From positions 62,001-126,000 of the forward strand of contig NZ_AOLQ01000025.1 in NCBI RefSeq assembly GCF_000337775.1: a stretch of 64,000 nucleotides of DNA, read 5' to 3'. Every line of letters starts with the position of its first letter. Positions within the stretch are counted from its first letter, which is position 1. This stretch comes from Haloarcula vallismortis ATCC 29715. Lineage in GTDB: Archaea > Halobacteriota > Halobacteria > Halobacteriales > Haloarculaceae. The notes under the pieces are model-generated. The model was not told where the DNA came from and did no database searches. It saw nothing but the letters and a program-made list of their open reading frames with translations. Positions 16,253 to 54,606 of the stretch are shown here, one piece after another. Both the position numbers and the translations under genes were made by a program.

Positions 16253-17968
16253 CTACGATGGCCCGCTGTCGGCGTCCCACTCCTGCAGTTCCTTCCGCCG
16301 GATTTTCCCACTCGTCGTTTGTGGCAACGTATCGGCAAATTCGATCTCGCGGGGGTACTCGTACTCGGCGAGGTGTTCTCTGACGACGGACTTGATTTCC
16401 GACCGGAGCGTCCCGTGAGCCGGTGCGTCCTCAGCTGGCTCGACGTAGGCTTTGATGATTTCGCCGCGTGTGTCGTCCGGCACGCCGATGACGCCGGCCT
16501 GAATCACGGCAGGGTGTTCGAGAATCGCGCTCTCGACCTCCATCGGGCCGACGCGGTAGCCGCTCGTGATGATAACGTCGTCCTTGCGCGATTTGAACCA
16601 GACGTAGCCGTCGTCGTCCTGCCGGGCCAGGTCGCCGGTCACGAACCAGCCCTCGACCTCCTTGGCTGCCGTCTTCTCGGGCATGTGCCAGTACTCGTCG
16701 AAGAACACCGAGCGGTCGTGCGGTCGCAGTGCTATCTCGCCGAGTTCGCCGGTCGAGAGGGGCTCAGCGACGCCGCGGTCGGCGGCGTCGGGGTCCAGAA
16801 TCGTCAGGTCGTACCCCGGCAGCGGTTTGCCCATGCTGCCGGGCTGGGTATCGAACCAGTTGGAGTTGGTAGCGACGACGAGGTTCAGTTCAGTCTGGCC
16901 GTAGAACTCGTTGATCGTGACCGAATCAAGGGTGTCCACGACCCAATCTACGATTTCGGGCGTCAGCGACTCGCCGCCGACAGCAAGCGTCTCGATGTCG
17001 AGGTCGTATGTCGCCGTCGGGACCTCGATATCCATCAGCATTCGGAGGGCGGTGGCCGGCATGAACGACCGGGTGACGCCGAACTCCGAGAGCAGGTCAA
17101 ACGCCTCGTCGGCGTCAAAGCCCGAGGCGGGGTAGCCGACGACAGTCCCGCCGTGGTGCCACGTCGCAAAGAGCGTCCCCCCGAGTGCCGCACCCCAAGC
17201 CCAGTCCGCGGGCGTCCAGACCGTCGCGTCCGGCCCGAGACCGTGGTCAAAGAAATTGTACGCCGCCGCTGCGCGCCCGAGCCAGAGCGCGTGCGAGTGA
17301 CGGACGCCCTTTGGTGGCCCCGTCGAGCCACTCGTGTACAGTATCGCCGTGTCGGTGGCCGGCGTCGAGTCGTATGTATCGATAGCCGCGTCCTCCGGCA
17401 CGGCGAGTACGTCCTCGAAGGCGTGGACATCGTCCGTCGGGGCGTCGGTTTCGATTTCGACGATGTGTTCCAGCGCCGAGCAGTCGTCCCGGACTGCGTC
17501 GATATCGTCACGCACGGCTGGATCAATAACGGCGACGGTCACGCCAGCGTCGTCCAGCCGATACCGGAGTGCGTCCGTGCCGAACAGGACCGTCAGCGGA
17601 ACCGACACGGCCCCGAGCTTCCAGTTCGCCAGGTGTGTGACTGGATTCTGTGGCTTCTGTGGGACGACGACGCCGACCCGGTCGCCGGCCTCGACGCCGA
17701 GTCCGGCCAGCCCTGCCGCGAGCCTATCTGATAGCTGATCCAGTTCGCGGAACGTGTACTGGTCGCGCCGGCCATCTGGATATGCCTGTTCGAGTGCCAC
17801 CCTGTCGGGGTCGTCGTGTTTTCGCAGAAAGTCGACCGCCGGATTGTACGACGTTGGCAGGTCCCAGGTGAACTCATCGCGGGCCTCGTCGTACTCCTCG
17901 AAGTCCGGCATTACTGTCCAGACCATGGCATGCTGGTCGTCTGGGTGGCTGTTGCGTCTTTCGGTCAT
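16253..17968 (-). CDS. Acyl-CoA synthetase, AMP-binding family
   Basis: About 571 residues. The adenylate-forming signature Y-T-S-G-S-T-G-P-P-K-G-V is near residue 205. Later motifs Y-G-Q-T-E, T-G-D-L-A-R and the C-terminal K-S-R-K-D-D-V-I-I-T-S-G-Y-R and T-T-S-G-K-I-R-R-K-E are complete, including the catalytic Lys. It activates an acid with ATP and joins it to CoA; the sequence is closer to medium-chain/acetyl-type synthetases than to long-chain ones. The ATG at 17968 leaves 53 bases to the divergent methyltransferase gene. Exact acid unknown. Confidence 0.92.
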   Translation of the reverse strand: MTERRNSHPDDQHAMVWTVMPDFEEYDEARDEFTWDLPTSYNPAVDFLRKHDDPDRVALEQAYPDGRRDQYTFRELDQLSDRLAAGLAGLGVEAGDRVGVVVPQKPQNPVTHLANWKLGAVSVPLTVLFGTDALRYRLDDAGVTVAVIDPAVRDDIDAVRDDCSALEHIVEIETDAPTDDVHAFEDVLAVPEDAAIDTYDSTPATDTAILYTSGSTGPPKGVRHSHALWLGRAAAAYNFFDHGLGPDATVWTPADWAWGAALGGTLFATWHHGGTVVGYPASGFDADEAFDLLSEFGVTRSFMPATALRMLMDIEVPTATYDLDIETLAVGGESLTPEIVDWVVDTLDSVTINEFYGQTELNLVVATNSNWFDTQPGSMGKPLPGYDLTILDPDAADRGVAEPLSTGELGEIALRPHDRSVFFDEYWHMPEKTAAKEVEGWFVTGDLARQDDDGYVWFKSRKDDVIITSGYRVGPMEVESAILEHPAVIQAGVIGVPDDTRGEIIKAYVEPAEDAPAHGTLRSEIKSVVREHLAEYEYPREIEFADTLPQTTSGKIRRKELQEWDADSGPS

Positions 17969-18021
17969 CGTCGTCACAACCGATCCAGCAGAACTTTCCG
18001 TCTTCCCCACTCGGCTCTACC

Positions 18022-22537: not shown

Positions 22538-23587
22538 TCAGTTCTCGGACTCAGCGTCGTCAGCGTTCGGCTGGCCGCCGTCGGTCTGGGGTTCGCCCCC
22601 GTCGGCCGCAGTCGGCTGTTCCCGCTCTTCCTCTAGCTGCTGCTCCCAGCGGATGCGCAGGACGTTCCCGTACATCGACAGCACGAGCCCGACCCCGAGG
22701 ACGACCATCCCGAGGTTGATGCCAACCGTCAGCAGGATGCTCGACGGGCCGCCGCCAATCGCAAGCTCGCGCGGCACCGGATACCCCTCGTCGAAGATGC
22801 TCCCGATGAGCACCGAGACGATGCCGATGACGGTCATCGCACCGAAGATGGTCGAAACGGTGCGCCACGAGGGCGACAGCGAGAGCCGCTCGATCCCCGT
22901 AGTATCCGGCTCTTCGTCCTCGTCGCCGTGGTGTTCGGGCACCATGCTGCGGGGAATAAACGCCTTCGTCTCGACGGGGTAGAAGGCGGGGTGCATCCCG
23001 TGCTCGAAGATGTGGAACATGACTCCCATCAGCATGATGACACCCAGCAGGCCGTGGAACGTGACGAAGGCCATCGCGGCCGCCTTGGTCTGGAACATCG
23101 CAGCGAGTCCGGTCTTGCTCCAGATGAGCAGCCCCGAAATCGCGAGCAGCGTCAGCTCGATAGAGAAGATGAACACGACGCCTTTACCGATGTAGGACAG
23201 CAGCGGGACCTCGTCGGCTTTGTAGCCGCCGAACTGCCGCGCGCTCGGGTGTCGCTCGTCGGCCCGGCCCAGCACGAACTGGATATCCTGGATGAACGCG
23301 TCGATGTCGTCCTTTCCGGGGAGAATCTTCGAGAAGTTGCTCCGGCCGGTCGAGGAGATAATCTGGAGCGTGATCCAGAAGATGACGAGCGCGACCAGCC
23401 CGATGCCGGTGATGCGGTGAATCGCTGTCACACCGGAGGCCCCGCCCATGAGCGTGAGCATCCACCACAGTTCGTCGTTGAACATGATGGCGTAGCCGGT
23501 GAAAAACAGCAGGAACACGTCGAGACCCAGAAGCGAGTGGAACAGGGTCGTCACGCGCGTGAACTTCCCGTGGTCGAGGTTACTCAC
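22538..23587 (-). CDS. Formate dehydrogenase-like cytochrome b (gamma) subunit
   Basis: A 349-residue membrane protein of the di-haem cytochrome b561-like FdhI/PsrC-neighbour type. Candidate haem-ligand His residues lie in T-T-L-F-H-S-L, I-H-R-I-T-G, V-T-F-H-G-L-L-G and F-H-I-F-E-H-G. There are about five membrane helices, then a polar acidic tail of about 45 residues. It would anchor the complex and pass electrons to the quinone pool. It is the last gene of a four-gene operon; its start overlaps the preceding stop by four bases. Confidence 0.85.
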   Translation of the reverse strand: MSNLDHGKFTRVTTLFHSLLGLDVFLLFFTGYAIMFNDELWWMLTLMGGASGVTAIHRITGIGLVALVIFWITLQIISSTGRSNFSKILPGKDDIDAFIQDIQFVLGRADERHPSARQFGGYKADEVPLLSYIGKGVVFIFSIELTLLAISGLLIWSKTGLAAMFQTKAAAMAFVTFHGLLGVIMLMGVMFHIFEHGMHPAFYPVETKAFIPRSMVPEHHGDEDEEPDTTGIERLSLSPSWRTVSTIFGAMTVIGIVSVLIGSIFDEGYPVPRELAIGGGPSSILLTVGINLGMVVLGVGLVLSMYGNVLRIRWEQQLEEEREQPTAADGGEPQTDGGQPNADDAESEN

Positions 23588-23994
23588 GCGCCGTCACCTC
23601 CCTGTCCGTCGCCGCCGGCCGGCGAGCCACCGTCGGCCGCGACGGCCTCGCTGACGTCCTCGCCGGGTTCACGCATCTGGCCGGCCAGTCGCTGGAACGC
23701 CGCCCAGTGGATGAACACCATCACGAGGATGAACGCGCCCATGATGACGTCGGCCGCGTGGATGAGCGCGATGAGGAAATCGAGCGCTGGGATGGTGTTA
23801 CCGAACACCCAGTCCGAACCGATGCCACCGCCCTCGACACTTGGGTTGACCCGGTACAGCGATTCGTAACCGATTCTGAGCCCCTGTGCCCAGAACAACG
23901 ACAGCGCCGCCACAGCGAGTCCGACGACCGCGCTGATGAGCACCGAGACGCGGCTGTAGCCGCTCACCTCCGGAAGGTCCTCTTCTGCCGTCAT
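23584..23994 (-). CDS. Small membrane subunit in the formate dehydrogenase operon
   Basis: A 136-residue protein with two long membrane helices (about residues 15-38 and 70-97) around an extracytoplasmic loop of about 30 residues. A Gly/Ala/Asp-rich tail follows. Both its start and stop overlap neighbouring genes by four bases, so it is translated with the complex. I know no named family; an accessory anchor or assembly role is inferred from position only. Confidence 0.7.
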   Translation of the reverse strand: MTAEEDLPEVSGYSRVSVLISAVVGLAVAALSLFWAQGLRIGYESLYRVNPSVEGGGIGSDWVFGNTIPALDFLIALIHAADVIMGAFILVMVFIHWAAFQRLAGQMREPGEDVSEAVAADGGSPAGGDGQGGDGA

Positions 23995-24653
23995 TGGAAC
24001 TCACTGGCGTCCTCGCCAAAGATGATGTCCATGGCCACGTCGTTGAAGAACGTGCCGCTGTCCCTGTTGTCCAGTTCGTCCGAAATCTGTTCCGGGGTCC
24101 CGACCAAGATGGCGTCGGTTGCACACTCCTCGGCGCAGGCCGGCCCCTTGCCAACGTCTTGGCGCTCTTCGCACATGGTACACTTGTCCATGTTGCCGCC
24201 GCTGCCGACGAGGTTGGCGACCCCCGAATCCTCGTCGGGGAACTGGGGCGCGCCGAAGGGACACGCCGAGAGGCAGTACTGACAGCCGATACAGAGGTCG
24301 TCACGGACCCGGACGAAGCCGTTCTCCTTCGAGATGAGCGAGTCGGTCGGGCACACCGAGACACACGGCGCGTTCTCACAGTGGTAACACTGCATCGGCA
24401 CCGCGGTCTCGCCGGGTGACTCGCCCTGGCCTATCGCCTGCCCGCTGCTGGCGTTGAGCCCCGACGCGGCCTCCTGGCCTTCGAGCATCGTTGCGATACT
24501 GATTCGCTGTTCGTCCCGTGGGACGTCCCACGTTCGTTTACAGGAGACGACACAGCCGCCACAGTCGATGCACGCTTCGACGTCCGGGAAGATACGCGCG
24601 TCCTCGCCGGTACTCATCACGCCGTCGTGCATCACTTCGTTGCCTGTTGACAT
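23991..24653 (-). CDS. Four-cluster ferredoxin-type beta subunit of formate dehydrogenase-like complex
   Basis: A 220-residue electron-transfer subunit. Sixteen Cys fall in four groups: C-I-D-C-G-G-C-V-V-S-C, C-Y-H-C-E-N-A-P-C-V-S-V-C-P, C-I-G-C-Q-Y-C-L-S-A-C-P-F-G and C-T-M-C-E-E-R followed by C-A-E-E-C. This is the FdhB/DmsB/PsrB pattern of four [4Fe-4S] clusters linking the catalytic subunit to the membrane. There is no signal peptide, as expected for co-export with the Tat-signal alpha subunit. It lies 11 bases after the alpha-subunit gene. Confidence 0.92.
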   Translation of the reverse strand: MSTGNEVMHDGVMSTGEDARIFPDVEACIDCGGCVVSCKRTWDVPRDEQRISIATMLEGQEAASGLNASSGQAIGQGESPGETAVPMQCYHCENAPCVSVCPTDSLISKENGFVRVRDDLCIGCQYCLSACPFGAPQFPDEDSGVANLVGSGGNMDKCTMCEERQDVGKGPACAEECATDAILVGTPEQISDELDNRDSGTFFNDVAMDIIFGEDASEFQ

Positions 24654-24664
24654 ACTAGCTCACC

Positions 24665-27600
24665 TCATTGCACCGTCGAGTTGTCGCGGACGTCGAAGTC
24701 CTTCTGTGTCCCAACGTCGTTCACGTCCTGCGGGAACGTGAGATCGAGATCGACATCCATGTTGAATTCGTTGACTACCTCCTCGGTCGCCGGGTAGACG
24801 CCGACCATCGACACCTTCGTTTCCTGCATCTGGGTCTCGACATCGTAGCCGCGTGACGTGATCGCGTTCGCGGAATCCCCGATCGCGTAGGGCACGTGCC
24901 CGTCGGGATACTTCTCCTCCAGGCTCTGGCCTTTGAACACGCCACCCCAGTGGTACGGCAGGAACACTTCCTGTGGGTTCGGTCGGTTCGTCACCCGCGA
25001 TTTCACCAGGACGGACCCGCGGTCCGTCGAGGCGATGACGATCAGGTCGCCGCCGTCAATGCCCAGGTCCTCCGCCATCTCCGGATGGACCTCGGCGTAC
25101 ATGTGCGGCTGGAGGTCAGCGGTGTGGATGTTGTTCCGCGTCTCCGCACCACCGCCCTGGTGTTCGACCTGCCGACCGCTGGTCATGATGGTGTCCAGGT
25201 CCGGGCCTTCCTCCTGATTGTGGATGATGTCCGTCGCCCGTTCCTGCTCGACGAGGTTGTTCTGGTCGAGCCGGTAGAAGTTCCGCTGCTGGCCGTTTGC
25301 CGGCCACTCGTTCAGCAGTTCCGTGTCCGGCCCCTCGATAGGCTCGCGGTGGACCGGCACCTTATCGAGGAAGCTCCAGACGACGGCCCGTGCCCGGCCG
25401 CGCCCGGTCGGCGCGTCGGGTTGTGCGAAGTCGTACTGCTCGTAGAACTCGGGGTCGACCCCCTCACCGATCATCGTTTCGAGGTACTCGTCGAACACCG
25501 CGCTCCCCGTGTCGGGGTTATTGAGCGCCTGCGCGGCGGTGTACACCGACTCCTGGTTGTCGAGCGCGTACTGCTGTGGGATGGTGAGTTCGTCCGGCTG
25601 GACCTCTTGCTCGGAGTCGATGAGGCTCTGTGGCGGCGTCACCTTCCAGCCCGGGTACTCGGGGATACCGTGAATCATGCCGTCCGCGGCCGTGTCGTCG
25701 TCGTCAGCCCACTCGGGGTTGTACGGCGCACGGGTCAGGTCCAGAGCCTCTTCCTGGCTCTCGTAGCGGTCCCCGACAGCGTCGAGCGTCTCCTGCATCG
25801 GGTACTCGTCGTCCGTCGGCATTGCGTCCCAGTCCTCCGGGGTCGGTGCCGAGACGCCCCACCGGGTCCGGAAGTCCTGTCCCCCGTTGTTGGGGTCGAG
25901 GTCGTCGTTCCAGATAATCGGCGTCCCCGGATGGTCCTCGCCCCAGCAAGGCCAGGGGAGCATCCAGTACTCACCCGCGACCGGCGTCCCCTCGGCCCCT
26001 TTGAGGTCCTCGTTGGAGAACGCGTAGTCGTACTCCAGATGTTGCTGGAGCCGTTCGGGTGTCTGCCGGTAGCCGATGGTGTTGGTTCCGAGGTTGAACT
26101 CGCGGACGACACCCTCGTAGGAGGACTTGCCGTTGTAGAGGTCCGAGCCCGCGCCCCAGTCGAAGTGCTCGCCGAAGCCGAGGTAGCCGGCGAGTTCCTG
26201 CATGATCTGGAGGTCCGGCTTGGAGTTGTGGGCCGGCGAGCGGACCGGTTCGGACCACTGCACCGACCGGTTCGTGTTGGTCAGCGACCGGTAGTGCTCG
26301 TACTGGCTAGACGCCGGCAACAGCAACACCGGCGGGCCGTCCTCGTAGTCGGGGAGGACGCTCGCGACCGAGGGGAACACGTCGATGACGACCAGCAGGT
26401 CGAGGTTCTCCATCCCCTCTTTCATCTGTTCCATCTCGCTGATGGAGTTCGCCGAGTGCCCCCAGAAGAACGCGATTTTCGTCTGGTCGGGCTGGTAGAT
26501 CGGCGTCTCCTGATAGCGGTCCTCCTTGTCGAGTGCCGATTCGAACCAGCGGGCCACCGTCAGCCCGTTCTGGAACAGCATCGAGTTCTCGGCCGGGTTA
26601 TTCGGCCCGTGGTCAGTGTTCGGCGGGAGCGAGGCTGCGTCCTCGCTCCCTTCGTAGTTCGGGCTCTGGCGGACGTACTTCTCCGGCGGCATCAGCTCGA
26701 ACCGGTCGTACATGTCCGCAAACGAGGTGGAGCCGCTGGTCTCGGGGGTGCGGTCCCAGATTTCGGCCCACCACGACCAGCCACCCGGTGACAGACCGTA
26801 ATACCCCGGAAGGATGTGGCTGGCGACAGCCAGGTCGGTCGCTCCCTGCACGTTCGCGTGGCCACGCATTACCTGGAGGCCGCCGCCGCTCCGGGCCGCG
26901 CTCCCGGAGGCGAGGCTCGCCATCGCATACGAGCGGATGTTCTGGGTCCCGTTGTTGTGCTGGGTCCCACCCATCGCCCACTCAATCTGGACGTGGGGCC
27001 GGGCCTCGTCGATCATGTCGGCGATGCGCTCGATGTCCTCGGCGGACACCCAGGTAATCTCCTCGACGGTCTCCTTGTCGTACTGGTCGAGTTGCGCCTC
27101 AACGTCTTCCCAGCCCTGAACGCGGTCCGTGAGCATGTTCTGTCCGCTTTCGTCCGCGTCGGGGTCCATCGCCAGCCCGTGCTTGTCGCGGAGCTCTTTG
27201 ATGATCCCCATCATCAGGGCCACGTCGGTGCCCGGACGGAACCGCATGAACTCGTCGGCGTGGGCCGACGTTTTCGTGAACCGCGGGTCCAGATTGAGGA
27301 TAGTGCCGCCCCGCTTTTGCCCTTCGAGGATGTGCTGCATCGCGATTGGGTGTGCCTCGGCCGGGTTCTGCCCGATGATGATGTTCAGGTCGAAGTTCCG
27401 GTAGTCCTGAACGGTGTTGGTCATCGCGCCGTACCCCCAGGTGTTTGCCAGCCCCGTCACCGTCGTGGAGTGGCAAATCCGAGCCTGGTGGTCGATGTTG
27501 TTCGTGCCCATGAACGCCGCCAGTTTCCGGCTTGCGTAGGCCTCCTCGTTGGAGTGATGGGCGCTGCCGAGCAACATCACGCTCTCGCGGCTGTGCTCCG

Positions 27601-28066
27601 CGTCGACGTCGACGGCCTCGCTCGGTGAGACGTCGTCATCCGGCCACAGCGCTCGGATGTCGGTCGCCAGGCGGTCGTAGGCCTCGTTCCAGCCGAGCTT
27701 GCGCCACTCGCCGTCCTCCTGAATCATCGGATGCTTCAGGCGCTTCTCGGAGTGTTCGGTCTCGTAGATGCCGGCCCCTTTCGAGCACAGCGACCCGGCA
27801 TTTATAGGGTGTTCATGCCATGGTTCCATGCCGACGAAGGAGTTGCCCTTCCTCTCGCCCCGGAAGCCACAGCCCACCGAACAGTAGTTGCAAATGGTCT
27901 TGGTCAGTTCGGTGTCCGTGTCTGTCCCGTCCGTTTCCTCGCCGTCTTCCTGAAGTGCCCGACCAGCGCCGCTGACGCCGAGAGCGACCCCGCCCGCGAG
28001 GGCGCTCGCTTTCATGAACGAGCGCCGGTCGAGATCCAGTGAGACTGGTTCCTGTTGTGTACTCAT
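24665..28066 (-). CDS. fdhA: Formate dehydrogenase-like molybdopterin alpha subunit, Tat-exported, Cys form
   Basis: A 1133-residue catalytic subunit of the DMSO-reductase superfamily. A Tat signal (R-R-S-F-M-K, residues 14-19) precedes a hydrophobic stretch. A [4Fe-4S] site is formed by C59, C62, C66 and C94. The metal ligand position is C198 in A-R-I-C-H-S-T-T-V, where formate dehydrogenases have Sec or Cys followed by His; here it is a TGC Cys codon. FDH-N-like length and a four-gene operon with FdhB-like and cytochrome b genes suggest periplasmic-side formate oxidation to quinone. Another small-molecule substrate cannot be excluded. Start ATG 28066 gives the usual short Tat N-region. Confidence 0.88.
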   Translation of the reverse strand: MSTQQEPVSLDLDRRSFMKASALAGGVALGVSGAGRALQEDGEETDGTDTDTELTKTICNYCSVGCGFRGERKGNSFVGMEPWHEHPINAGSLCSKGAGIYETEHSEKRLKHPMIQEDGEWRKLGWNEAYDRLATDIRALWPDDDVSPSEAVDVDAEHSRESVMLLGSAHHSNEEAYASRKLAAFMGTNNIDHQARICHSTTVTGLANTWGYGAMTNTVQDYRNFDLNIIIGQNPAEAHPIAMQHILEGQKRGGTILNLDPRFTKTSAHADEFMRFRPGTDVALMMGIIKELRDKHGLAMDPDADESGQNMLTDRVQGWEDVEAQLDQYDKETVEEITWVSAEDIERIADMIDEARPHVQIEWAMGGTQHNNGTQNIRSYAMASLASGSAARSGGGLQVMRGHANVQGATDLAVASHILPGYYGLSPGGWSWWAEIWDRTPETSGSTSFADMYDRFELMPPEKYVRQSPNYEGSEDAASLPPNTDHGPNNPAENSMLFQNGLTVARWFESALDKEDRYQETPIYQPDQTKIAFFWGHSANSISEMEQMKEGMENLDLLVVIDVFPSVASVLPDYEDGPPVLLLPASSQYEHYRSLTNTNRSVQWSEPVRSPAHNSKPDLQIMQELAGYLGFGEHFDWGAGSDLYNGKSSYEGVVREFNLGTNTIGYRQTPERLQQHLEYDYAFSNEDLKGAEGTPVAGEYWMLPWPCWGEDHPGTPIIWNDDLDPNNGGQDFRTRWGVSAPTPEDWDAMPTDDEYPMQETLDAVGDRYESQEEALDLTRAPYNPEWADDDDTAADGMIHGIPEYPGWKVTPPQSLIDSEQEVQPDELTIPQQYALDNQESVYTAAQALNNPDTGSAVFDEYLETMIGEGVDPEFYEQYDFAQPDAPTGRGRARAVVWSFLDKVPVHREPIEGPDTELLNEWPANGQQRNFYRLDQNNLVEQERATDIIHNQEEGPDLDTIMTSGRQVEHQGGGAETRNNIHTADLQPHMYAEVHPEMAEDLGIDGGDLIVIASTDRGSVLVKSRVTNRPNPQEVFLPYHWGGVFKGQSLEEKYPDGHVPYAIGDSANAITSRGYDVETQMQETKVSMVGVYPATEEVVNEFNMDVDLDLTFPQDVNDVGTQKDFDVRDNSTVQ

Positions 28067-28218
28067 GGTGAATGGTGCCCACCCATTACCGATGCTGTCC
28101 GCGCTTGCCACGCAATCTGGTTTGTCATTGTCTAACTAGACGTGCTACAACTTTACTGTCATGTATGATAAAAGGTGTCATATTTTGCCATGATTATTAC
28201 TGGGGATTTTTTGACGGG

Positions 28219-28301: not shown

Positions 28302-30437
28302 ATGGATACAGGTGCCTTTGTGTGTTCCTGCGGGGGATCGTGTGATATCGACCTCGAAGCGGTTCGGGACGGCGTCGATGATGTCGACGTCGTGGCCAGT
28401 TCCGAACTGCTCTGTCAGGACGGCCTGGCCGGGATGTCACAGGTCATCGAGGAGTACGACCTCGATCAGGTCATCGCGACGACGCCGGAACCGTCGTGCC
28501 AGGACCGAATTCGCGGGCTGGCCGACGAACACGGCCTGCATCCCGAGGCGTCGGTGTTCGTCGACCATCGGGAGACCAACGCCTGGGTCCACGACGAGGC
28601 GGCGGCCACCGACAAGACGGCACGCCTCATCAACGCGAAACAGGCCGGCCTGCGCGAGGAAGCGCCGTCGCGAACGGTGTCGAAAGACGCCGGGAACCGC
28701 GTCGCCGTCGTCGGCGACCCCGGCGCGGCCCGGTCACTGACCGACGACGCCGACGTGACGTTCATCGCGGACGGCCGGGACTTCGCCGACGTGGAAGGAC
28801 TCGGCGACGTGACGATGGAACGCGGTCGCGTCGTCGACATCGAGGGGTCCTACGGCGAGTACGAACTCACGCTGGAAGCCCGCGTCACCGACGACTGTAT
28901 CGATTGCATGGACTGCGTGCGTGAGGGGCCGGATGGGATGGTGACGGAGTTCCCCGTCGACATCCATCCGGACGCCCCTGACGGCGAGTGGACGAACACC
29001 TGTCCGACTGACGCTATCGACTTAGGCGGCGTCACCCGCACCGTCGAAGTCGACCAGGTCATCTACCCGGGCGGCCGCGACAACGCCCGCGGCGGTCGAC
29101 TGGGTTTCTACACCGGGCCGGTCGACGCCGGAACCATCGCCGCCGTCGAATCACAACTGGGCGGCATCGAGAAACCGCAGTTCCTCGACCTCGATATGGA
29201 CGTCTGTGCGGCCGGCGCATCAAGCCAGGAGGGGTGTACGGCCTGCGTCGACGCCTGTCCCCACGGCGCGGTCGACCGGCCGACCATCGACTCCGTCGAG
29301 TTCGACGAGACCGCCTGTGAGAACTGCGGTGCCTGTACGAGCGCCTGTCCGACCGGCGCGACCCAGCTCCGCGAGCCTTCGAACCGGCGGCTCGCCCGCG
29401 AGGTCGAGGCGCTGCTGGAAGACGACGCGGACGGGGGGCTGCTCTCGCGGGGTGACAGCAGGGGTATCGAGACGCAGGTCGTCGCGTTCGTCTGCTCGGA
29501 GTACGCTGCCGAGCGACTCCGAGCACATGGACGCAAAGCCGTCCGGTCGGGCGACCTCGACTACCCACCGATTCTCCCGGTCCAGGTCAACTGTACGGAC
29601 ACCGTCGGCGAGGCCCACGTCATGCACGCGCTCGCGGCCGGCGCGGACGGGGTGGCAATCGTCGGCTGTGGGGGCTCCTGTCTGCACTCCGGCCCCGACC
29701 CCAAGCAGGAGCTGGTCGACCGGCTCAATCAGGCGACGACTGACCTCGGGCTGGGCGACCGCGTCGGTTTCTTCGCGCCGGAGGCCGGCAACCCCGAGGC
29801 GTTCGTCGAGTCGCTGTCCGGCTTCGTCGAGTTCGGGTTAGACGAGACGCCAGTCCCGGCCGGCGACTACGAGGCGACGGGCCGCAGCGATACGGGCCGC
29901 GAGGAACCCCGCCCCAACCCCGACTTCGACAGCCACGGCTGGACCTTAGAGAGCGTCCGGACTATCCTCGATCACGCCGAGCCCGAACGCGAGGTGATCC
30001 GCGGGCTGAAGGACTTCGGCGTCATGGACGTCAACGACGCGTGTACGCTGACGCCGACCTGTACGAACCTCTGTCCGACCGACGCCATCAAGCGGACCGG
30101 GCAGGGCGAACTGGCGTTTAACCACGCTGACTGTGTCAACTGCGGCCTCTGTGAGGAGGGCTGTCCGGAGACGGCGATTACGATGCACGACGGGCTCGAC
30201 CTCTCCTTGCTCCCCGAGAACCGGGGCGGCGAGGCCTGGGTGACGGTTCACGAGGGCGAGATGCTGGAGTGTGTCCGCTGTGGCAAGCCGTTCACCAGCG
30301 TCGCCTCGGCCGACAAGATCGAGGACGAAGTAGGTGACCAGGTCGAGGGGCTGGCTCCCGACGCCGACCACAGCGTCTTCGAGTACTGTAGCGACTGTCG
30401 GAGTCGCCTGCTGTTCGACCAGGGGGAGAAGCGATGA
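28302..30437 (+). CDS. HdrA/MvhD-derived multi-cluster iron-sulfur protein
   Basis: A 711-residue soluble protein. The N-terminus (F-V-C-S-C-G-G-S-C) resembles HdrA. A short Rossmann-like remnant follows (R-V-A-V-V-G-D-P-G-A-A), lacking most of the HdrA FAD domain. Next come a C-I-D-C-M-D-C ferredoxin part, a C-T-A-C-V-D-A-C-P / C-E-N-C-G-A-C-T-S-A-C-P ferredoxin domain, and an MvhD/FlpD-like domain (V-A-F-V-C-S-E-Y and I-V-G-C-G-G-S-C). A third ferredoxin domain (C-V-N-C-G-L-C-E-E-G-C-P) and a terminal C-x2-C...C-x2-C zinc or rubredoxin-like pair complete it. It probably moves electrons between the formate dehydrogenase region and a soluble acceptor; bifurcation is doubtful without FAD. The TorD-like gene overlaps its stop by four bases. 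Confidence 0.8.
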   Translation: MDTGAFVCSCGGSCDIDLEAVRDGVDDVDVVASSELLCQDGLAGMSQVIEEYDLDQVIATTPEPSCQDRIRGLADEHGLHPEASVFVDHRETNAWVHDEAAATDKTARLINAKQAGLREEAPSRTVSKDAGNRVAVVGDPGAARSLTDDADVTFIADGRDFADVEGLGDVTMERGRVVDIEGSYGEYELTLEARVTDDCIDCMDCVREGPDGMVTEFPVDIHPDAPDGEWTNTCPTDAIDLGGVTRTVEVDQVIYPGGRDNARGGRLGFYTGPVDAGTIAAVESQLGGIEKPQFLDLDMDVCAAGASSQEGCTACVDACPHGAVDRPTIDSVEFDETACENCGACTSACPTGATQLREPSNRRLAREVEALLEDDADGGLLSRGDSRGIETQVVAFVCSEYAAERLRAHGRKAVRSGDLDYPPILPVQVNCTDTVGEAHVMHALAAGADGVAIVGCGGSCLHSGPDPKQELVDRLNQATTDLGLGDRVGFFAPEAGNPEAFVESLSGFVEFGLDETPVPAGDYEATGRSDTGREEPRPNPDFDSHGWTLESVRTILDHAEPEREVIRGLKDFGVMDVNDACTLTPTCTNLCPTDAIKRTGQGELAFNHADCVNCGLCEEGCPETAITMHDGLDLSLLPENRGGEAWVTVHEGEMLECVRCGKPFTSVASADKIEDEVGDQVEGLAPDADHSVFEYCSDCRSRLLFDQGEKR

Positions 30438-31060
30438 ACGACGCGGCCGTCTACGAGGCCCGCCTCGAACTGGTCGACTTCGTCATCGACGTGTTCTGGG
30501 ACGTGCCCGACGAAGCGTTCGTCGAGCGGCTGTTGAGCGGCGATATCCAGCTACCGGAGGACTCCATCAACGACCAGCTCGACGAGGGGTTCGAGCTATT
30601 GCAGGCGTGGATAGACGAGAACACCGACCGGTCGGTGTCGGCGGTGCAGGCGGACCTCGAACGGGAGTACACGAACCTGCTCGTCGGCCCGCGGCCGCCG
30701 GTGTTGCCCCACGAGACGAACTACCGGGAGGACACGGAGTTCATCGGCGAGGGGCTCGCCGAGGTCGATGCCAGCTACGCCGCGGCGGGGTGGTCACCGC
30801 CCGAGGACTACCCCGAAGAAGACGACTTCATCGCCGTCGAACTGGCGTTCCTGCGGTATCTCATCGAGCGCCAGCGCGAGGGCGACGAGGAGACCGTTGG
30901 CTACGAGCGGGTGTTCATCGAGCAACATCTCAGCGAGTGGGTCGTCGACTTTGCCGAGGAGATGCGCGAGGAGGCCGACGACGGCCTCTTCCTCGCGGCG
31001 GCGCTCGTCTGTGAGGGGCTGGTCCGCTTCGAAGACGAGATCGTCGCACAGATCGGCTAG
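30434..31060 (+). CDS. TorD/DmsD-family molybdoenzyme chaperone
   Basis: A 208-residue all-helical acidic protein. The conserved loop L-L-V-G-P-R-P-P-V-L-P-H-E-T-N-Y matches the E/L-Y-x-x-L-F-x-G-P pattern of TorD/NarJ-type chaperones. These bind the Tat signal of a molybdoenzyme and hold it until the cofactor is loaded. The client is most likely the nearby fdhA product, which has a Tat signal. It is co-transcribed with the HdrA/MvhD-like gene through a four-base overlap and convergent with three small membrane-protein genes. Confidence 0.85.
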   Translation: MNDAAVYEARLELVDFVIDVFWDVPDEAFVERLLSGDIQLPEDSINDQLDEGFELLQAWIDENTDRSVSAVQADLEREYTNLLVGPRPPVLPHETNYREDTEFIGEGLAEVDASYAAAGWSPPEDYPEEDDFIAVELAFLRYLIERQREGDEETVGYERVFIEQHLSEWVVDFAEEMREEADDGLFLAAALVCEGLVRFEDEIVAQIG

Positions 31061-31814: not shown

Positions 31815-33032
31815 ATGACATCGCGCCGCGGACTGCTGCTTCGGCTCTCCGCACTCACCGGAGCGGCCGGTCTCAGCGGTTGTTCGTCCCTGCTGGCCAG
31901 GCGAGCGGAGTCGCCAACAGGGAACCTCGACCCGAACCCGCGGGCCGACGAACTCCCGATACGACAACACGCCTGGAACGAGCGCCTTCAGAGCGATGCC
32001 GCCGGCAACGACCTGTTGCCACACCATTTCCGGCTGTTCATGCTCGACCTCGACGCCTCGCCGTCTGATACGACCGCGGAAACCGTCGAGCTAGCGATGC
32101 GAACACTGGAAGACGCGTATGAGTTCAACAGTGCAGGGCTCCTGCATATGCTCGGCTGGGGAACAAGCTACTTCGACACCTACGGGTCGCTCGATTCGTC
32201 CCCGATACGCAGCCCGCAGGTCCTCTCCCGGACGGACGACCCCGACCTGCAGGCCTTCGACGCGATGCTCGTCCTCGCGAGTGACGTTCCCTCGAACCTC
32301 TCGGCCGCCGAATCAGCGATGTTCGACACGCGCCCGCGGCTGGCCGACGCGGAGATTCAGGGCCGCCTCGGCGATGTGTTCTCCATCGCCGACCGCCGTG
32401 GCGGGTTCGTCGGGGAGGGACTCCCGGCGGCCCACGCCGACGCGGAGGGCGTCCCCGCCGACATCCCCGAGGAGGCACATATGTTCTCGGGCTTTTTCGC
32501 CGGCCGGAAGGGGACACAGGCCAGCGAGCACCGCGTTACCATCGACGACGGCCCGTATGCCGGTGGAACGACGATACACCTCTCACGAATCAACGAGGCC
32601 TTCGACAACTGGTGGGAGCTCGCCCAGTCCGACCAGGTCAAGCGGCTGTTTTCGGCGGAGTTCTCCCCGGGCGACATCGACAGGGGCGACCTCCCATTCG
32701 CCGACGTAGTCCGCGAGCACGCGAGCAGCGAGGGGGAGGTTGGACATTTCGAGAAGGTGGCCCGCGCCCGCAAGGACGGGGAGCCGATTATCCTCCGGCG
32801 CGACTTCAACACGATTGACGGCGGTCAGGCCGGGCTTCACTTCCTGTCGCTACAGGAGCGTCCGCGGGACTTCGAGGAAGTCCGGGACGCGATGAACGGC
32901 TGGTGGCTCCGGGAAGAACACGAGGACCTCCGGGACCGGCAGAACAACGGCCTGCTGGAGTTCATCGAGGTCGTGTCGCGCTCGAACTTCTACGTCCCAC
33001 CGCGCGACAAACGGGCCTTCCCGACCCCGTAG
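31815..33032 (+). CDS. DyP-type peroxidase-like Tat lipoprotein
   Basis: A 405-residue protein. The N-terminus has a twin Arg (R4-R5) and a lipobox L-S-G-C23, so it is probably exported folded and lipid-anchored. The C-terminal third follows the DyP/EfeB pattern: a His (H311) in a G-H-F-E-K-V-A-R-A-R segment where the haem-ligand His is expected, then I-L-R-R-D-F-N, then A-G-L-H-F-L-S-L-Q and N-F-Y-V-P-P-R. The usual G-x-x-D-G motif is not clear, so enzyme activity is uncertain. It may extract or store haem iron, or act as a peroxidase. It is divergent from the three small membrane genes. Confidence 0.6.
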   Translation: MTSRRGLLLRLSALTGAAGLSGCSSLLARRAESPTGNLDPNPRADELPIRQHAWNERLQSDAAGNDLLPHHFRLFMLDLDASPSDTTAETVELAMRTLEDAYEFNSAGLLHMLGWGTSYFDTYGSLDSSPIRSPQVLSRTDDPDLQAFDAMLVLASDVPSNLSAAESAMFDTRPRLADAEIQGRLGDVFSIADRRGGFVGEGLPAAHADAEGVPADIPEEAHMFSGFFAGRKGTQASEHRVTIDDGPYAGGTTIHLSRINEAFDNWWELAQSDQVKRLFSAEFSPGDIDRGDLPFADVVREHASSEGEVGHFEKVARARKDGEPIILRRDFNTIDGGQAGLHFLSLQERPRDFEEVRDAMNGWWLREEHEDLRDRQNNGLLEFIEVVSRSNFYVPPRDKRAFPTP

Positions 33033-34044: not shown

Positions 34045-34833
34045 TCACCCATCAGCGAGGTCCCAGTCTGCCTTCTCCGCGGCGTCGGCAAGCGAGATAA
34101 ACTCCCAGCCGGTCCGCTCGGCAATGGGCTCGTCGGCCGGTCGGCCCACTAGAACCATCCGCTCTGCGTAGAACATCGAGTGCTCGTTGATGTCGGCAAG
34201 CCGCTCGGCTGGCTCCTGGCCCGCGCCGCTGAAGAAGTCGGCGTCGATGCCGTTGTCGCGCTGGAATTTGTTGATGACGAAGGCGTCGACGTCGCCGACG
34301 ATACCAACCCAGTCGGCCCAGGCGCGCGCCTCGCGGAAGACCCGTTGCGGGTCGGCGAACTGCCGGGCCGCGTCGTATGTCACGGCCATCGTCATATCGT
34401 CGATGCCACCACCGTGAGGACCGCTCGCATCTACGGGCTCCTCGCCGGCGGCGGGGTCCTCGGCGACGTTCGAGGCGGGGTCAGTGTTAGTCGCGGCTGC
34501 GCCACCTGCGCCCCCGCTATCCGTCGGAATACCGACCGGCTTGTCTTTATTCTCACGGGGGACGTGGGGGACCGACTGACCACCACGGGCCGCGCTGGCG
34601 GTATTCCCATCGTTCCCCTCCATGCCGGTGTCGCCGTCCTGACTCGTCCCTGTGGCCGCATCGGGACTCTCAGCCTCGGCGTCGCTATTGGGCCGCACCG
34701 ATGCGGTCCCAGTGGCTCCGGGGTCGGGCTCGTCTTCGGGGTCACCCTCGCCACTCCAGAACCAGTCACCCCTGTTTGGCGTCTCTTCGTCGTCCTGTAC
34801 GTCGAGTTCGTCGAGGTCGATTTCGTCTGTCAT
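34045..34833 (-). CDS. DUF7124-like protein with long disordered N-terminal half
   Basis: A 262-residue protein. Residues 1-140 are low-complexity and acidic, rich in Gly, Asp, Ser, Pro and Thr, and look disordered. Residues about 145-262 form a compact domain (M-T-M-A-V-T-Y-D-A-A-R-Q-F-A-D-P, then W-V-G-I-V-G-D-V-D-A-F). The ATG overlaps the stop of the AOR-like gene by four bases, so the pair is co-translated. I recall a haloarchaeal family DUF7124 with this C-terminal domain; its function is unknown. A role as partner or regulator of the AOR homologue is inferred from position. Confidence 0.65.
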   Translation of the reverse strand: MTDEIDLDELDVQDDEETPNRGDWFWSGEGDPEDEPDPGATGTASVRPNSDAEAESPDAATGTSQDGDTGMEGNDGNTASAARGGQSVPHVPRENKDKPVGIPTDSGGAGGAAATNTDPASNVAEDPAAGEEPVDASGPHGGGIDDMTMAVTYDAARQFADPQRVFREARAWADWVGIVGDVDAFVINKFQRDNGIDADFFSGAGQEPAERLADINEHSMFYAERMVLVGRPADEPIAERTGWEFISLADAAEKADWDLADG

Positions 34834-36602
34834 TCTCCGAGTGTCGTGTCCGCTGGTAGTGTCGACTGGTCGACGGCGTCCGCGAGGCCAAGTCGTTCGA
34901 TTGTCTCGGCGGTGGGCCGGCCGTCGGTGTCCCAGCCGCGCTGGTCATAGTAGGCGTCGAGCATCGCGTCGAAGGACTCGGTGTCGATTGCCGCGCCCGC
35001 GTTCGGTCCCGAATCGAGCGGTTCCTGCAGTTTCGCCGGAAGTTCGTCGTCAGCCCGCGAGACGCCCTCGCGGACGTTGAACAGGCGTGTGAGCGTCCAG
35101 ACGCGCTCGCCGACCGTCGCGAGGTCGCCGTCAGTGTCCAGACCGATAGCGTCGAGCCACTCCGCGCCGAGGTCGTCGAAGGCGTCGCCGACGAAATCAT
35201 CGACGACGAGACACCACAGCACTGAGCGCTGGTCCTGTTCGCGAATGACGGCCGCGGCCGCTCGCTCGGGGCTCCAGTCGCCGTCGAAGGCCTCCCGCTC
35301 GATGGGGAGCGCCCGCCGGTGGCAGGCTCCGCGGTCGCTGGTCGCGTACGCCAGCGCCATGCTCCGTGCGCCGCGGGGGTCGTACGCGGGCAGTTCCATG
35401 GCCTTGACCGTCGGCAGGAGGTCGTCCCCGCCCAGGCGGGCCGAAGCCGCGTCGACGCCGTCGGCCAGGGCGTCCCCGAGCGTCGTCTCCCGCGCGACGA
35501 TTTCGTTCAGAAGCGCTCGCGCGTCGTCGGGACTTCCGTAGTCGAACGATTCCTCCAGCAGACCTACGTCGCCGGCTTTGATGGCCCACGAAACGGCGCT
35601 CCCGGCGCTGATGAGGTCGAGGCCGAGTCGGTTGCACGTCTCGCCCAACGTCGCCACAGCGTCGAAGTCGTCGATGCCGAGCCCGGCCCCGAGACTCATC
35701 GCCGTCGCACCGCGGGGGACGGTCTCACCGTCCTCCGTCTCGACGCGGAATCCGCCGGGACTGTCCGCATCGTCGTACTCCCGCCCCGCGGCGAGGTCCT
35801 GTACGGCCTCGATGCCGACTCCGTCGGCCCCCTCGAACTGACCGTCCTCCCAGCCCCGCGTCGAGAGCGCACCGACCTCGTTGGCGAAATCGACCGTCTC
35901 CACGGTCCCGCTGGCGTGGAGCCACTGTCCGGTGTCGCCCTCGCGGTACCGCTTTGCGTACTGTTTCCGTAGCTCCGCGAGGTCTGTCGGCGGGTCGCCG
36001 CGGACGACGATGGCTTTCAGTCGCTTTGCGCCCATCACTGCCCCGGCACCGCCCCGGCCGGCGTGGTGTTCGCCGCCGTCGGAGGCGATGGTCGCGAACG
36101 CGACGCCCTGCTCGCCCGCTGGGCCGATACACGCCACCGCAGCCTCGGGAAACGCCGCGTCGGTTTCGGCCGTGTCATGGCCCCACGTCTCGGCGGGTTC
36201 GACCGTCGCGTCGTCGTCCTTGACGACGAGTGTGACCGGCTCCGAGGCGCGTCCGGTGACCAGAATCCCGACGTGGTCCTGCAACGCGCCGGCCAGCGTG
36301 TCCGGAAACGTCCCGCCGGCGTAGGAGTCGAGGAAACCACCAGTCAGCGGCGACTTCGTGACCGCCGCGTAGCGCGTTTCGCCGGGGAGCAACCCGGAAA
36401 CCGGTCCGAGCATGAACAACAGGACGTTCTCGGGGGCCAGCGGGTCGGTGCCGGCGTCGAGTTCGTCGTACAGGTACCGAGCGCCCAGGCCCTTGCCGCC
36501 CACGAACCGCCGACGCCACCGCTCCGGGACCGGACGACTCTCGACCGACGCCGACGACAGGTTGACGTGGAGCATCCGGTCTCGGTTGCCTACTGTCATC
36601 AT
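34830..36602 (-). CDS. Aldehyde:ferredoxin oxidoreductase family protein lacking [4Fe-4S] ligands
   Basis: A 590-residue homologue of tungsten AOR. The N-terminal L-H-V-N-L-S-S and F-V-G-G-K-G-L-G, the pterin motif A-G-R-G-G-A-G-A-V-M-G-A-K (residues 181-193), N-E-V-G-A-L-S-T-R-G and E-T-C-N-R-L-G-L-D are conserved. The C-x2-C-x3-C cluster motif expected near residues 270-282 is absent. The protein has only four Cys (158, 323, 427, 464), none grouped. It may bind tungstopterin without a cluster and use another acceptor, or have a new role. Start at CATCAT, 36600-36602. Co-translated with the DUF7124-like gene and divergent from mobA. Confidence 0.85.
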   Translation of the reverse strand: MMTVGNRDRMLHVNLSSASVESRPVPERWRRRFVGGKGLGARYLYDELDAGTDPLAPENVLLFMLGPVSGLLPGETRYAAVTKSPLTGGFLDSYAGGTFPDTLAGALQDHVGILVTGRASEPVTLVVKDDDATVEPAETWGHDTAETDAAFPEAAVACIGPAGEQGVAFATIASDGGEHHAGRGGAGAVMGAKRLKAIVVRGDPPTDLAELRKQYAKRYREGDTGQWLHASGTVETVDFANEVGALSTRGWEDGQFEGADGVGIEAVQDLAAGREYDDADSPGGFRVETEDGETVPRGATAMSLGAGLGIDDFDAVATLGETCNRLGLDLISAGSAVSWAIKAGDVGLLEESFDYGSPDDARALLNEIVARETTLGDALADGVDAASARLGGDDLLPTVKAMELPAYDPRGARSMALAYATSDRGACHRRALPIEREAFDGDWSPERAAAAVIREQDQRSVLWCLVVDDFVGDAFDDLGAEWLDAIGLDTDGDLATVGERVWTLTRLFNVREGVSRADDELPAKLQEPLDSGPNAGAAIDTESFDAMLDAYYDQRGWDTDGRPTAETIERLGLADAVDQSTLPADTTLGE

Positions 36603-36680
36603 ACCTCATTCTTCTGTCTGTCGACTAAAGGATTACCCACAGCACGAAGCGCCTTTCTGCCAGACCTGAGAAGGCAGAGT

Positions 36681-37286
36681 ATGCGCGCAGGCATTATCAT
36701 CGCTGGCGGCCGGTCGACGCGGTTCGGCGACAGCGACAAGGCCGTCGCTGACCTCGCTGGCACGCCGATGATCCGCCGCGTCGCCGACCGACTGGGGCAG
36801 GCCGTCGGCGAACTCGTCGTGAACTGCCGCGAGGACCAGGTCGAGGCCATCGACGCGGCGCTTTCGGACCACACCCTCGACCCGACGTTCGCGCTCGATA
36901 CGGACCCCGACCAGGGGCCGATGGCAGGCATCGCGACCGGGCTGGGGGCCGTCGAGAGCGAGTACGCGGCCGTGGTGGCCTGTGACATGCCCTTTGTCGA
37001 CCCGTCGTTCGTCGACTACCTGTTCGAGCGGGCGGCGTCCCACGAGGCCGCGGTCCCGCGCCCCGACGAGTGGTTCCAGACGACACAGGCAGTGTATCAC
37101 GCAGACGCCATGGGCGACGCCTGCCAGCGAGCGCTGGAGCGCGGCGAGCACAGGATTGTCGAGCCGCTGTTCGACCTCGATTACGTCGTCGTCGAGCGCG
37201 AGGAGATTCTCGAACACACCTCATTGGATACGTTCGAGAACCTCAACACTCGCGAGGAGTTCGAGGCCGCTATCGAGCGGCTCTAG
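36681..37286 (+). CDS. mobA: Molybdenum cofactor guanylyltransferase
   Basis: A 201-residue nucleotidyltransferase. The N-terminal I-I-I-A-G-G-R-S-T-R-F-G-D-S-D-K-A is the MobA GTP-binding loop. V-A-C-D-M-P-F-V carries the metal-binding Asp, and D-Q-G-P-M-A-G-I and F-E-N-L-N-T are family motifs. It joins GMP to molybdopterin to make the dinucleotide form used by DMSO-reductase-family enzymes such as the nearby fdhA product. ATG 36681 gives the normal length; longer upstream starts would run antisense through the AOR gene. Confidence 0.92.
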   Translation: MRAGIIIAGGRSTRFGDSDKAVADLAGTPMIRRVADRLGQAVGELVVNCREDQVEAIDAALSDHTLDPTFALDTDPDQGPMAGIATGLGAVESEYAAVVACDMPFVDPSFVDYLFERAASHEAAVPRPDEWFQTTQAVYHADAMGDACQRALERGEHRIVEPLFDLDYVVVEREEILEHTSLDTFENLNTREEFEAAIERL

Positions 37287-37308: not shown

Positions 37309-38028
37309 TCAGACGACAGCGACGAGCGGGTCGTCTGCTCGCATCTCGGCGAGCACGACACGCGGGACATCGGCGCGCTCGTGAATCGCTTCGGCGACGG
37401 CCCGCGCGCTCGTTTCGAGTTCGTCGTCGTCGACCATGTTGAGCAGCGGAATCGCGGTCGCGCTGGCTGGCAGGTCTTTCAATCCACCTCGGTCGCTGGC
37501 GAGCACCGCGGCGACATCTTGCGGGTGGATCACGTCGCCGGGGTCCAGCCCGGTAATCGCGGCCACTTCGTCGACTCGATGGACAATGTCGTCCGTTAGC
37601 GGTTCGCCGACGACGTGAGCGCTCGCGATGGGAACGACCGTCGAGGCCGTCGAGGGGAGCTGTGGCTCGCGGTCGCTCGGCGCTTTGAATTCTCGCATTC
37701 GCGCGCCGTCAGCTTTCACCAGAATCGGGTGGTCGATGTCTGCCAGGTCGGCGACGGTCGCCGGGTCGTAGCCGCGGTAGCGGTCCGGGCGTTCCTGTGC
37801 CGGGACGACACCCAGCGGCCACGCAGATGCCGTCTCGATGGCTGTCCGTGGGGTCTCTGTCACAACAACGTCTGTGACCCAGCCGTCGAAAATCGGAATT
37901 CGGACCGTCGCAGTAACGACTGCGCGCACCAGTCGCGCTGCGAGTGTTGCCATCGCCGTCTTCTTCCCCCCAGCGCCGACGAAGCAGGTGGTCCCGTGCT
38001 GTGCGTCTAGCGCGTCGACGATGTCCAT
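37309..38028 (-). CDS. yqeC: YqeC-like P-loop protein (selenium-dependent molybdenum hydroxylase accessory family)
   Basis: A 239-residue protein. The N-terminal P-loop-like F-V-G-A-G-G-K-K-T-A-M and the later I-L-V-K-A-D-G-A-R-M-R-E-F-K-A-P (Walker-B region) match YqeC. The tail V-V-L-A-E-M-R-A-D-D-P-L-V is also conserved. In bacteria YqeC is linked to maturation of selenium-dependent molybdenum hydroxylases. Here it sits between mobA and moaA, which supports a molybdenum-enzyme role without proving selenium use. Convergent with mobA. Confidence 0.8.
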   Translation of the reverse strand: MDIVDALDAQHGTTCFVGAGGKKTAMATLAARLVRAVVTATVRIPIFDGWVTDVVVTETPRTAIETASAWPLGVVPAQERPDRYRGYDPATVADLADIDHPILVKADGARMREFKAPSDREPQLPSTASTVVPIASAHVVGEPLTDDIVHRVDEVAAITGLDPGDVIHPQDVAAVLASDRGGLKDLPASATAIPLLNMVDDDELETSARAVAEAIHERADVPRVVLAEMRADDPLVAVV

Positions 38029-39268: not shown

Positions 39269-40354
39269 ATGAGTTTCACGTTCCGCGACCAGACGACGGT
39301 TTCGCTGTCGTGGAACGAACTGACCGGTGCGGTCGGGGACTCGGCAACGGTGCTGCCGGTCGTCGTGGCCGTCGCCGTGCTGACGGAGCTCTCGCTCCCG
39401 GTCATGCTCGTCTGGTTCGGCGTTTTTCAGGTCGTCTGGGGGCTGTACTACGGCGTCCCAATATCGGTCGAGCCGATGAAGGCCTTCGCCGCACTGGTCA
39501 TCGCCGGAACCATCTCCACCGGTGAACTGGTCGTCGCGGGGCTTTTGCTGGCCGGTATCCTGCTCGTGCTCGGAACGACGCAATCACTCGAAACCGTCAA
39601 TCAGTACGTCGATGACACTGTCGTTCGGGGGGTGCAACTCGGCGTCGCGCTGGTCCTGCTAGAAACCGGCATCGGTCTCGGACTCACCGACCTGCGGCTC
39701 GTGGCTGTCGCTATCGGTGTAGTGGCTGTTTTCGCGCTCCTGGGCCACAGCGGGCAGAGCGCCTTCGCCGTCTTCGCCGTTGGAGCCGCCCTTGCCCTCG
39801 CGGAGACCGGGATGCCGACGCCAGCGGTCCCCGGTGTTGACGCTATGTTTATGCTCCCGAGCATGACGCTATCGGCGCAGACGGCGGAAGCCGTCCTCGC
39901 CCAGATTGCGGTCACGGTCGGCAACGCCGCCCTCGCCACGTCGGTCTTGCTCGCGGATTACTTCGACCGGGACGTGTCTGTGGACCAGCTCTCAAACAGC
40001 ATGGGGCTGATGAACCTTGCTGCGGTCCCCTTTGGCGCATTCCCGATGTGTCACGGGAGCGGTGGCGTCGCCGGGAAGTATGCCTTCGGTGCCAGAACGC
40101 CCGGCGCGAACCTGATACTCGGCGCGGGCTACGTGCTGACCGCGTTTCTCGCTGTCGGCGTTATCGCGGCCTACCCGACGGCGCTGCTCGGCGTCATTCT
40201 GGTGCTGATCGCGCTTCAGCTGGGCTGGACCGGGGTTTCCAGAACGGATGATCTGACAGTGGTCGCGGCGATCGGCGTCTTCGGTGTGCTCGTCAACCTC
40301 GGCCTTGCACTCGTCCTCGGCGTTCTCGTCCAGCAACTGCGCGCCAAGGTGTGA
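39269..40354 (+). CDS. MOT1-type molybdate (or sulfate) transporter
   Basis: A 361-residue protein with about 10-11 membrane helices. The signature motifs of the MOT1 branch of SulP-like transporters are present: E-L-T-G-A-V-G-D-S-A-T-V-L-P near residue 17, P-M-K-A-F-A-A in the middle, and P-M-C-H-G-S-G-G-V-A-G-K-Y-A-F-G-A-R near residue 258. There is no STAS domain, as expected for MOT1. Its place directly after moaA argues for molybdate or tungstate as substrate. Confidence 0.88.
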   Translation: MSFTFRDQTTVSLSWNELTGAVGDSATVLPVVVAVAVLTELSLPVMLVWFGVFQVVWGLYYGVPISVEPMKAFAALVIAGTISTGELVVAGLLLAGILLVLGTTQSLETVNQYVDDTVVRGVQLGVALVLLETGIGLGLTDLRLVAVAIGVVAVFALLGHSGQSAFAVFAVGAALALAETGMPTPAVPGVDAMFMLPSMTLSAQTAEAVLAQIAVTVGNAALATSVLLADYFDRDVSVDQLSNSMGLMNLAAVPFGAFPMCHGSGGVAGKYAFGARTPGANLILGAGYVLTAFLAVGVIAAYPTALLGVILVLIALQLGWTGVSRTDDLTVVAAIGVFGVLVNLGLALVLGVLVQQLRAKV

Positions 40355-54538: not shown

Positions 54539-54606
54539 GTGTGTACGAATGGCCGGCACACCAAAAAGCTCGCCAGGTTCACGGGGCTCCGGCCGGAAAG
54601 GGCTGT

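Follow-up and report, generated by a model that had tools for sequence, protein, structure and literature searches.

A 64,000-nucleotide stretch of the Haloarcula vallismortis ATCC 29715 genome (the window) encodes a large multi-Fe-S protein, here called P2, which is derived from HdrA, MvhD and HycF and has lost its FAD site (Table 1). The P2 stop codon and the start of a TorD/NarJ-family chaperone gene share the bases ATGA (30434–30437), and a formate dehydrogenase (FDH)-like operon lies upstream of P2 in divergent orientation, in agreement with an earlier sequence-only reading of the window. The operon encodes catalytic (FdhA), Fe-S (FdhB) and membrane subunits and a small hypothetical protein. 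Among solved structures, the closest relative of the window FdhA is the catalytic subunit of an FDH (9vap_A, E 3.5e-205); formate is only likely as its substrate, because its score against the NCBIfam Fdh-alpha model (390.9 bits) falls below the curated cut-off of 666. P2 of Har. japonica is 96% identical to the window protein, and a check of the P2 sequence revealed neither a signal peptide nor a transmembrane segment.

The window also contains a Mo/W island downstream of P2 (34045–40354) and, farther along, a moeA gene. The aldehyde:ferredoxin oxidoreductase of this island has counterparts near P2 and FDH in several other haloarchaeal lineages (loci L021, L166, L167 and L168). In Haloarcula, TorD is followed by a DUF7405 protein (31815–33032 in the window) with a weak Dyp-type peroxidase match at its C terminus, and in Haladaptatus (L021, 12964–14001) a Dyp-type peroxidase domain protein occupies the same place.

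Table 1. Features of the P2 locus and its surroundings in the window, with the domains of P2
Feature	Positions	Strand	Remarks
Cytochrome b561/FDH gamma-like membrane subunit	22538..23587	-	
Small hypothetical protein	23584..23994	-	One hydrophobic segment (one TM); conserved in haloarchaeal operons
FdhB-like 4Fe-4S subunit	23991..24653	-	FDH3-beta-like
FdhA-like molybdopterin subunit	24665..28111	-	Tat signal LDRRSF; Cys-His active-site motif ARICHST
Divergent intergenic region, fdhA versus P2	28112..28301	.	190 bp
P2, HdrA/MvhD/HycF-derived multi-Fe-S protein	28302..30437	+	711 aa; ATG start; FAD site lost
P2: HdrA-like N-terminal domain, aa 1–125	28302..28676	+	Cys8/10/14/38 and 66; putative [4Fe-4S]
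P2: collapsed FAD/Rossmann domain, aa 126–290	28677..29171	+	Degenerate GxGxxG (V-V-G-D-P-G-A-A)
P2: small ferredoxin-like loop	within 28677..29171	+	Inside the collapsed domain; Cys199/202/205/234
P2: HdrA C-terminal dicluster ferredoxin, aa 295–375	29184..29426	+	Cys302/312/315/319 and 339/342/345/349
P2: MvhD/FlpD-like domain, aa 393–510	29478..29831	+	Cys398/431/456/460
P2: HycF-like tail, aa 571–707	30012..30422	+	Two Fe-S sites; CxxC...CxxC ribbon 657/660/696/699
TorD/NarJ-family chaperone	30434..31060	+	208 aa; start overlaps P2 stop by 4 bp
DUF7124	34045-34833	-	Mo/W island
Aldehyde:ferredoxin oxidoreductase	34830-36602	-	Mo/W island
MobA-like	36621-37286	+	Mo/W island
YqeC	37309-38028	-	Mo/W island
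MoaA	38135-39217	+	Mo/W island
MOT1 molybdate transporter	39269-40354	+	Mo/W island
MoeA	53315-54559	-	

Domain architecture of P2 and its lost flavin site

P2 residues 3–139 match the NCBIfam HdrA model and residues 308–509 match HdrA2, whereas residues 393–510 match Pfam FlpD (64.3 bits versus a cut-off of 22.3) and several further segments match Fer4, so the HdrA-like N terminus, the MvhD/FlpD-like domain and the multiple ferredoxin domains that had been read from the sequence are indeed joined in one chain. A profile–profile alignment of 74 P2 sequences with 20 HdrA proteins gave probabilities of 99.7–100% and covered HdrA from end to end apart from a gap of about 250 residues in the FAD domain. 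P2 tracks HdrA through the N-terminal domain, the FAD fold's first beta-alpha-beta unit and the inserted ferredoxin, then skips these residues and re-enters at the last FAD motif (HdrA 'GIFVCGTAQAPKDI'), followed by the dicluster ferredoxin and MvhD. The gap takes in the HdrA segment that carries E356 and K409, placed here by similarity rather than from an aligned Methanothermococcus sequence; both residues have been named as essential for bifurcation (PMC12054007). The GxGxxG motif, intact in 18 of 18 HdrA rows, is degenerate in P2: among the 55 rows of a family alignment, its first glycine is kept in 53, the second in 9 and the third in 7.

An AlphaFold2 model of P2 (mean pLDDT 79.5, pTM 0.81; low confidence at residues 197–242 and 520–540) superposes on HdrA (5odc_A) over 319 of 653 residues, with an rmsd of 4.0 and a Z score of 14.9. 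In place of a complete FAD site, the model has a reduced Rossmann stub (residues ~126–290), of which roughly 105–130 residues are predicted to superpose on FAD proteins. The erosion of the FAD domain proposed in the sequence-only reading thus stands, although what remains is this reduced domain and not just a short motif. The reading had missed the HycF-like C terminus (residues 571–707), which in the model superposes on HycF over 127 residues (Z 10.2, rmsd 3.5) with two clusters and the ribbon, as well as the complete set of MvhD-like cysteines, of which Cys431, Cys456 and Cys460 align with those of MvhD in 7bkb and 5odc and Cys398 is assigned by position. HdrA, HycF and MvhD were the only clear families in a Foldseek search with the model.

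P2 is therefore a relative of HdrA with an MvhD fusion that has lost its flavin site. Like the type Ia HdrA proteins (HdrA2, in which HdrA is fused to MvhD; PMC12054007), it has the same domain order from the N terminus through MvhD, but its FAD domain spans ~165 rather than ~420 residues and lacks the bifurcation segment, a HycF-like tail has been added, and its host has no methanogenesis. As compared with soluble HdrA, P2 has the N-terminal HdrA domain and the C-terminal dicluster ferredoxin but not the complete FAD domain, and its operon contains no HdrB or HdrC genes. HycF itself (formate hydrogenlyase subunit 6) belongs to a hydrogenase complex bound to the membrane, whereas in P2 the corresponding region is the C-terminal end of a protein that is soluble.

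Nearly all members of the P2 family have four ferredoxin-type sites and the ribbon, and the remaining cysteines differ between archaea and bacteria. Cys199/202/205/234 and the MvhD set 398/431/456/460 are intact in all 27 haloarchaeal sequences of the FDH and Psr clades, whereas at most one of the 52 bacterial homologues has Cys199/202/205 and the MvhD set (0–1/52). Conversely, the second cysteine of the first Fe-S site in the HycF-like tail has been lost in haloarchaea (C584 to T) and is kept in 52 of 52 bacteria. The N-terminal HdrA domain is absent from the Shewanella and Halomonas homologues (554–604 aa) and is therefore dispensable. In the VIA-align output, rows that cover residues 376–570 are sparse.

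Distribution and genomic partners of P2

In a set of 243 haloarchaeal genomes with a completeness of 95% or more, P2 occurs in 71 and an FdhA orthologue in 72, each across 28 genera, and 69 genomes have both (Fisher p 2.7e-54, uncorrected for kinship). Their co-occurrence, anticipated in the sequence-only reading, extends to gene position, as 69 of the 73 copies of P2 are no more than 10 kb from FdhA. Two genomes have P2 only and three FdhA only; in two of the latter (G194 and G304), a divergent P2 in fact adjoins FdhA. The third, G044, has no P2 and encodes TorD and a Tat FDH whose membrane subunit is of the NrfD type; a related FDH thus exists without P2, which is therefore not universally needed. 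This locus (L034, 5954–11128) offers a natural control for P2 dependence.

A scan of GTDB contigs with P2 returned 80 loci, 78 of them bacterial, with FdhA (61/80), TorD (65/80) and DUF3305 (62/80) in the retrieved DNA. A tblastn search of plasmids matched alphaproteobacterial FDH3 operons (98–99% query coverage, E to 7e-19), in which the homologues are labelled '4Fe-4S binding protein', are often divergent from FdhA and are accompanied by TorD, DUF3305/3306 and a small Tat protein. Several non-haloarchaeal families of Halobacteriota encode full-length P2 of ~32% identity, mostly in FdhA-FdhB-TorD clusters. At one locus (L181), P2 and TorD are followed by two consecutive Tat-signalled large open reading frames (12241–14487 and 15624–18001), the second of which matches FdhA. 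In the tree, the haloarchaeal and bacterial forms are fully separated (support 100), and haloarchaeal P2 proteins from Psr-type operons form a single clade (99% SH-aLRT). The sequence-only reading suggested that a haloarchaeon may have made this change; that idea fails, since the same collapsed protein is present in Proteobacteria and non-haloarchaeal Halobacteriota, and the collapse thus predates these lineages.

P2 belongs to a known, functionally uncharacterised family. The 'fer4' or '4Fe-4S binding protein' of FDH3 operons (for example, Sagittula ABFK29_RS24650) is homologous to P2 over its full length and shares the collapsed HdrA core, the ferredoxin sites, the HycF-like tail and the FdhA-FdhB-FdhC-TorD neighbourhood, often in divergent orientation. 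The bacterial forms are 24–28% identical to P2 and, unlike it, lack the inserted ferredoxin loop and MvhD cysteines and are accompanied by DUF3305/DUF3306, a small Tat protein and FdhD. Such a 'fer4' frame was drawn, without a function, in TorD-fdh operons (Bay et al. 2015, PMC4464133). In Shewanella, the 'iron-sulfur cluster-binding protein' SO_4506, which precedes FdhT (SO_4507) and FdhA (SO_4509) and is co-regulated with them under RyhB (PMC5826389), would be a P2 homologue, judging from the operon order (L062). Full-text searches of open-access papers yielded neither an experiment on any member of the family nor an assigned function. New here are the HdrA ancestry of the family, its switching of partners and the FdhD gap described below.

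P2 also accompanies enzymes other than FDH. Four loci (L035, L036, L163 and L165) combine it with a PhsA/PsrA-like (thiosulfate/polysulfide reductase-like) catalytic subunit, in which a Tat motif could be read at L035, and with an FeS subunit, NrfD, TorD, Mrp/ApbC and MobA; the operon of this haloarchaeal clade has the order PhsA/PsrA-like-FeS-NrfD-TorD-P2-Mrp, in some cases with MobA after it, and at L164 the gene order is TorD-P2-Mrp. Where FdhA is not nearby, 14 of 21 bacterial loci have moaA, mobA, moeA, mobB, fdhD or tupABC in the retrieved DNA, and the others lie mostly on short contigs (L082 being an exception); FDH3 FdhA is encoded elsewhere in nine of ten bacterial genomes in which P2 is not adjacent to FDH. 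At the archaeal locus L177, which contains neither a molybdoenzyme nor TorD, the P2 gene immediately precedes, on its downstream side, those for the Tat-signalled small subunit and the large subunit of a [NiFe]-hydrogenase and for HycI, HypB, HypF and HypA. The hydrogenase association comprises this one clear locus and L175, where P2-TorD stands beside hyp-like open reading frames identified by eye. The neighbours of P2 are assembly factors: TorD, Mrp/ApbC, FdhD and Moco genes. These PhsA/PsrA-like, Moco/W and [NiFe]-hydrogenase contexts reject P2 as an FDH-specific subunit. What the contexts have in common is a Tat-exported Fe-S enzyme with assembly factors, usually including TorD; no one metal, quinone subunit or substrate unites them.

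Candidate roles for P2 before Tat export

Of 66 FdhA frames, 59 show a Tat motif. FdhA is exported folded through Tat and P2 has neither a signal nor a transmembrane segment, from which we infer that P2 would meet FdhA only before export. A precedent is NapF, a cytoplasmic protein with four labile [4Fe-4S] clusters that is required for reconstituting the cluster of NapA ahead of Tat export (reviewed in PMC10609526). By analogy, P2 would resemble NapF in being a cytoplasmic protein with several [4Fe-4S] clusters whose gene adjoins that of a Tat-exported Fe-S molybdoenzyme; their homology is limited to ferredoxin motifs (43.9 bits against the TIGR00402 napF model, cut-off 102.2), and P2 is about four times as large and has HdrA, MvhD and ribbon parts. 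The shared context of Tat-exported enzymes and assembly factors, together with the NapF precedent, favours a cytoplasmic role in Fe-S maturation. On the basis of genomics and fold, we consider it reasonably probable that P2, derived from an MvhD-fused HdrA, acts in the cytoplasm as a NapF-like partner in Fe-S maturation for Fe-S metalloenzymes bound for Tat export. In this scheme, internal collapse of the flavin domain would have converted such an HdrA into P2, which would reside in the cytoplasm and bind the FdhA precursor, and perhaps FdhB, alongside the neighbouring TorD-like chaperone; while TorD holds the precursor, P2 would supply [4Fe-4S] clusters, reducing equivalents or both for cofactor loading before Tat export. 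The intact MvhD-like [2Fe-2S] site and a size far exceeding that of NapF suggest, from the sequence, electron transfer rather than cluster donation alone, and the retention of the MvhD site in archaea argues for electron input in the archaeal branch.

The sequence-only reading had offered an electron conduit or a maturation or redox-sensing partner as possible roles, and the genomic contexts lend support to maturation. P2 could instead pass electrons in the cytoplasm between a soluble low-potential pool (ferredoxin or the neighbouring aldehyde:ferredoxin oxidoreductase, whose gene lies near P2 in the window and at the four loci named above) and either the membrane subunit of FDH or some other cytoplasmic enzyme, as its intact haloarchaeal clusters, including the MvhD-type site, and its HycF-like tail, as in formate hydrogenlyase, would allow. 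However, FdhA and FdhB are Tat-exported and P2, having no signal peptide, cannot wire the mature exported enzyme. Moreover, the membrane subunit varies with context (cytochrome b561, NrfD, none at the hydrogenase locus), bacterial homologues have lost the MvhD and inserted-ferredoxin cysteines yet keep the operon link, and the neighbours of P2 are maturation genes; a conduit for FDH also leaves the association of P2 with PhsA/PsrA-like reductases, Moco genes and [NiFe]-hydrogenase unexplained. We consider a conduit unlikely.

A redox or Fe-S sensor that controls how the neighbouring enzyme is expressed or exported would fit the short intergenic region between the divergent genes, the many clusters with one degenerate site (C584T) and the co-regulation of the Shewanella gene, as indicated by operon order, with fdhA by RyhB, an Fe-responsive small RNA (PMC5826389), but P2 matched neither a DNA-binding nor a kinase nor an effector domain in Pfam or NCBIfam, and a maturation factor would equally be expected to show co-regulation, leaving this role improbable. 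That P2 still bifurcates, with a flavin in the residual Rossmann fold or through a partner, is highly improbable, given the missing FAD-domain segment of E356 and K409 and the loss of GxGxxG in most of the family; nor was any HdrA-like protein found in 14 haloarchaeal genomes at E<=1e-40.

The maturation role also touches on FdhD, as a rule indispensable to FDHs, which sulfurates the cofactor or delivers it to FDHs and is critical in Escherichia coli (PMC10609526). A search found no FdhD (PF02634) in the window genome or in any of the 243 haloarchaeal genomes, ~70 of which have an FDH-type operon; the same search was positive in 8 of 14 controls, three archaea among them, and in 14 of 14 P2-bearing bacterial genomes. 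As a general rule, simple replacement of FdhD by P2 is unsupported, since FdhD is present in all 14 of these bacterial genomes and G044, without FdhD, has an FDH but no P2. P2 is a low-probability candidate for some of the work of FdhD in haloarchaeal FDH maturation. A broader version, in which the flavin-less HdrA is a general pre-export activator of Tat metalloenzymes (Mo/W and [NiFe]) and in haloarchaea also performs the sulfuration or cofactor-activation step of FdhD through its haloarchaeal-only cysteine sets, is improbable.

These observations draw attention to haloarchaeal FDHs, which must mature without FdhD. Maturation limits the production of FDHs intended for CO2 reduction, and a missing factor therefore has practical weight. 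In archaea and bacteria alike, P2 accompanies exported metal enzymes, and it probably helps to load or activate them before export. If this is true, a bifurcating enzyme would have lost its flavin and its scaffold would have been put to new use as an assembly factor, a protein labelled '4Fe-4S binding protein' in thousands of genomes would gain a testable job, and the finding would bear on the question of which protein inserts the Fe-S cluster of a molybdoenzyme catalytic subunit before Tat export.
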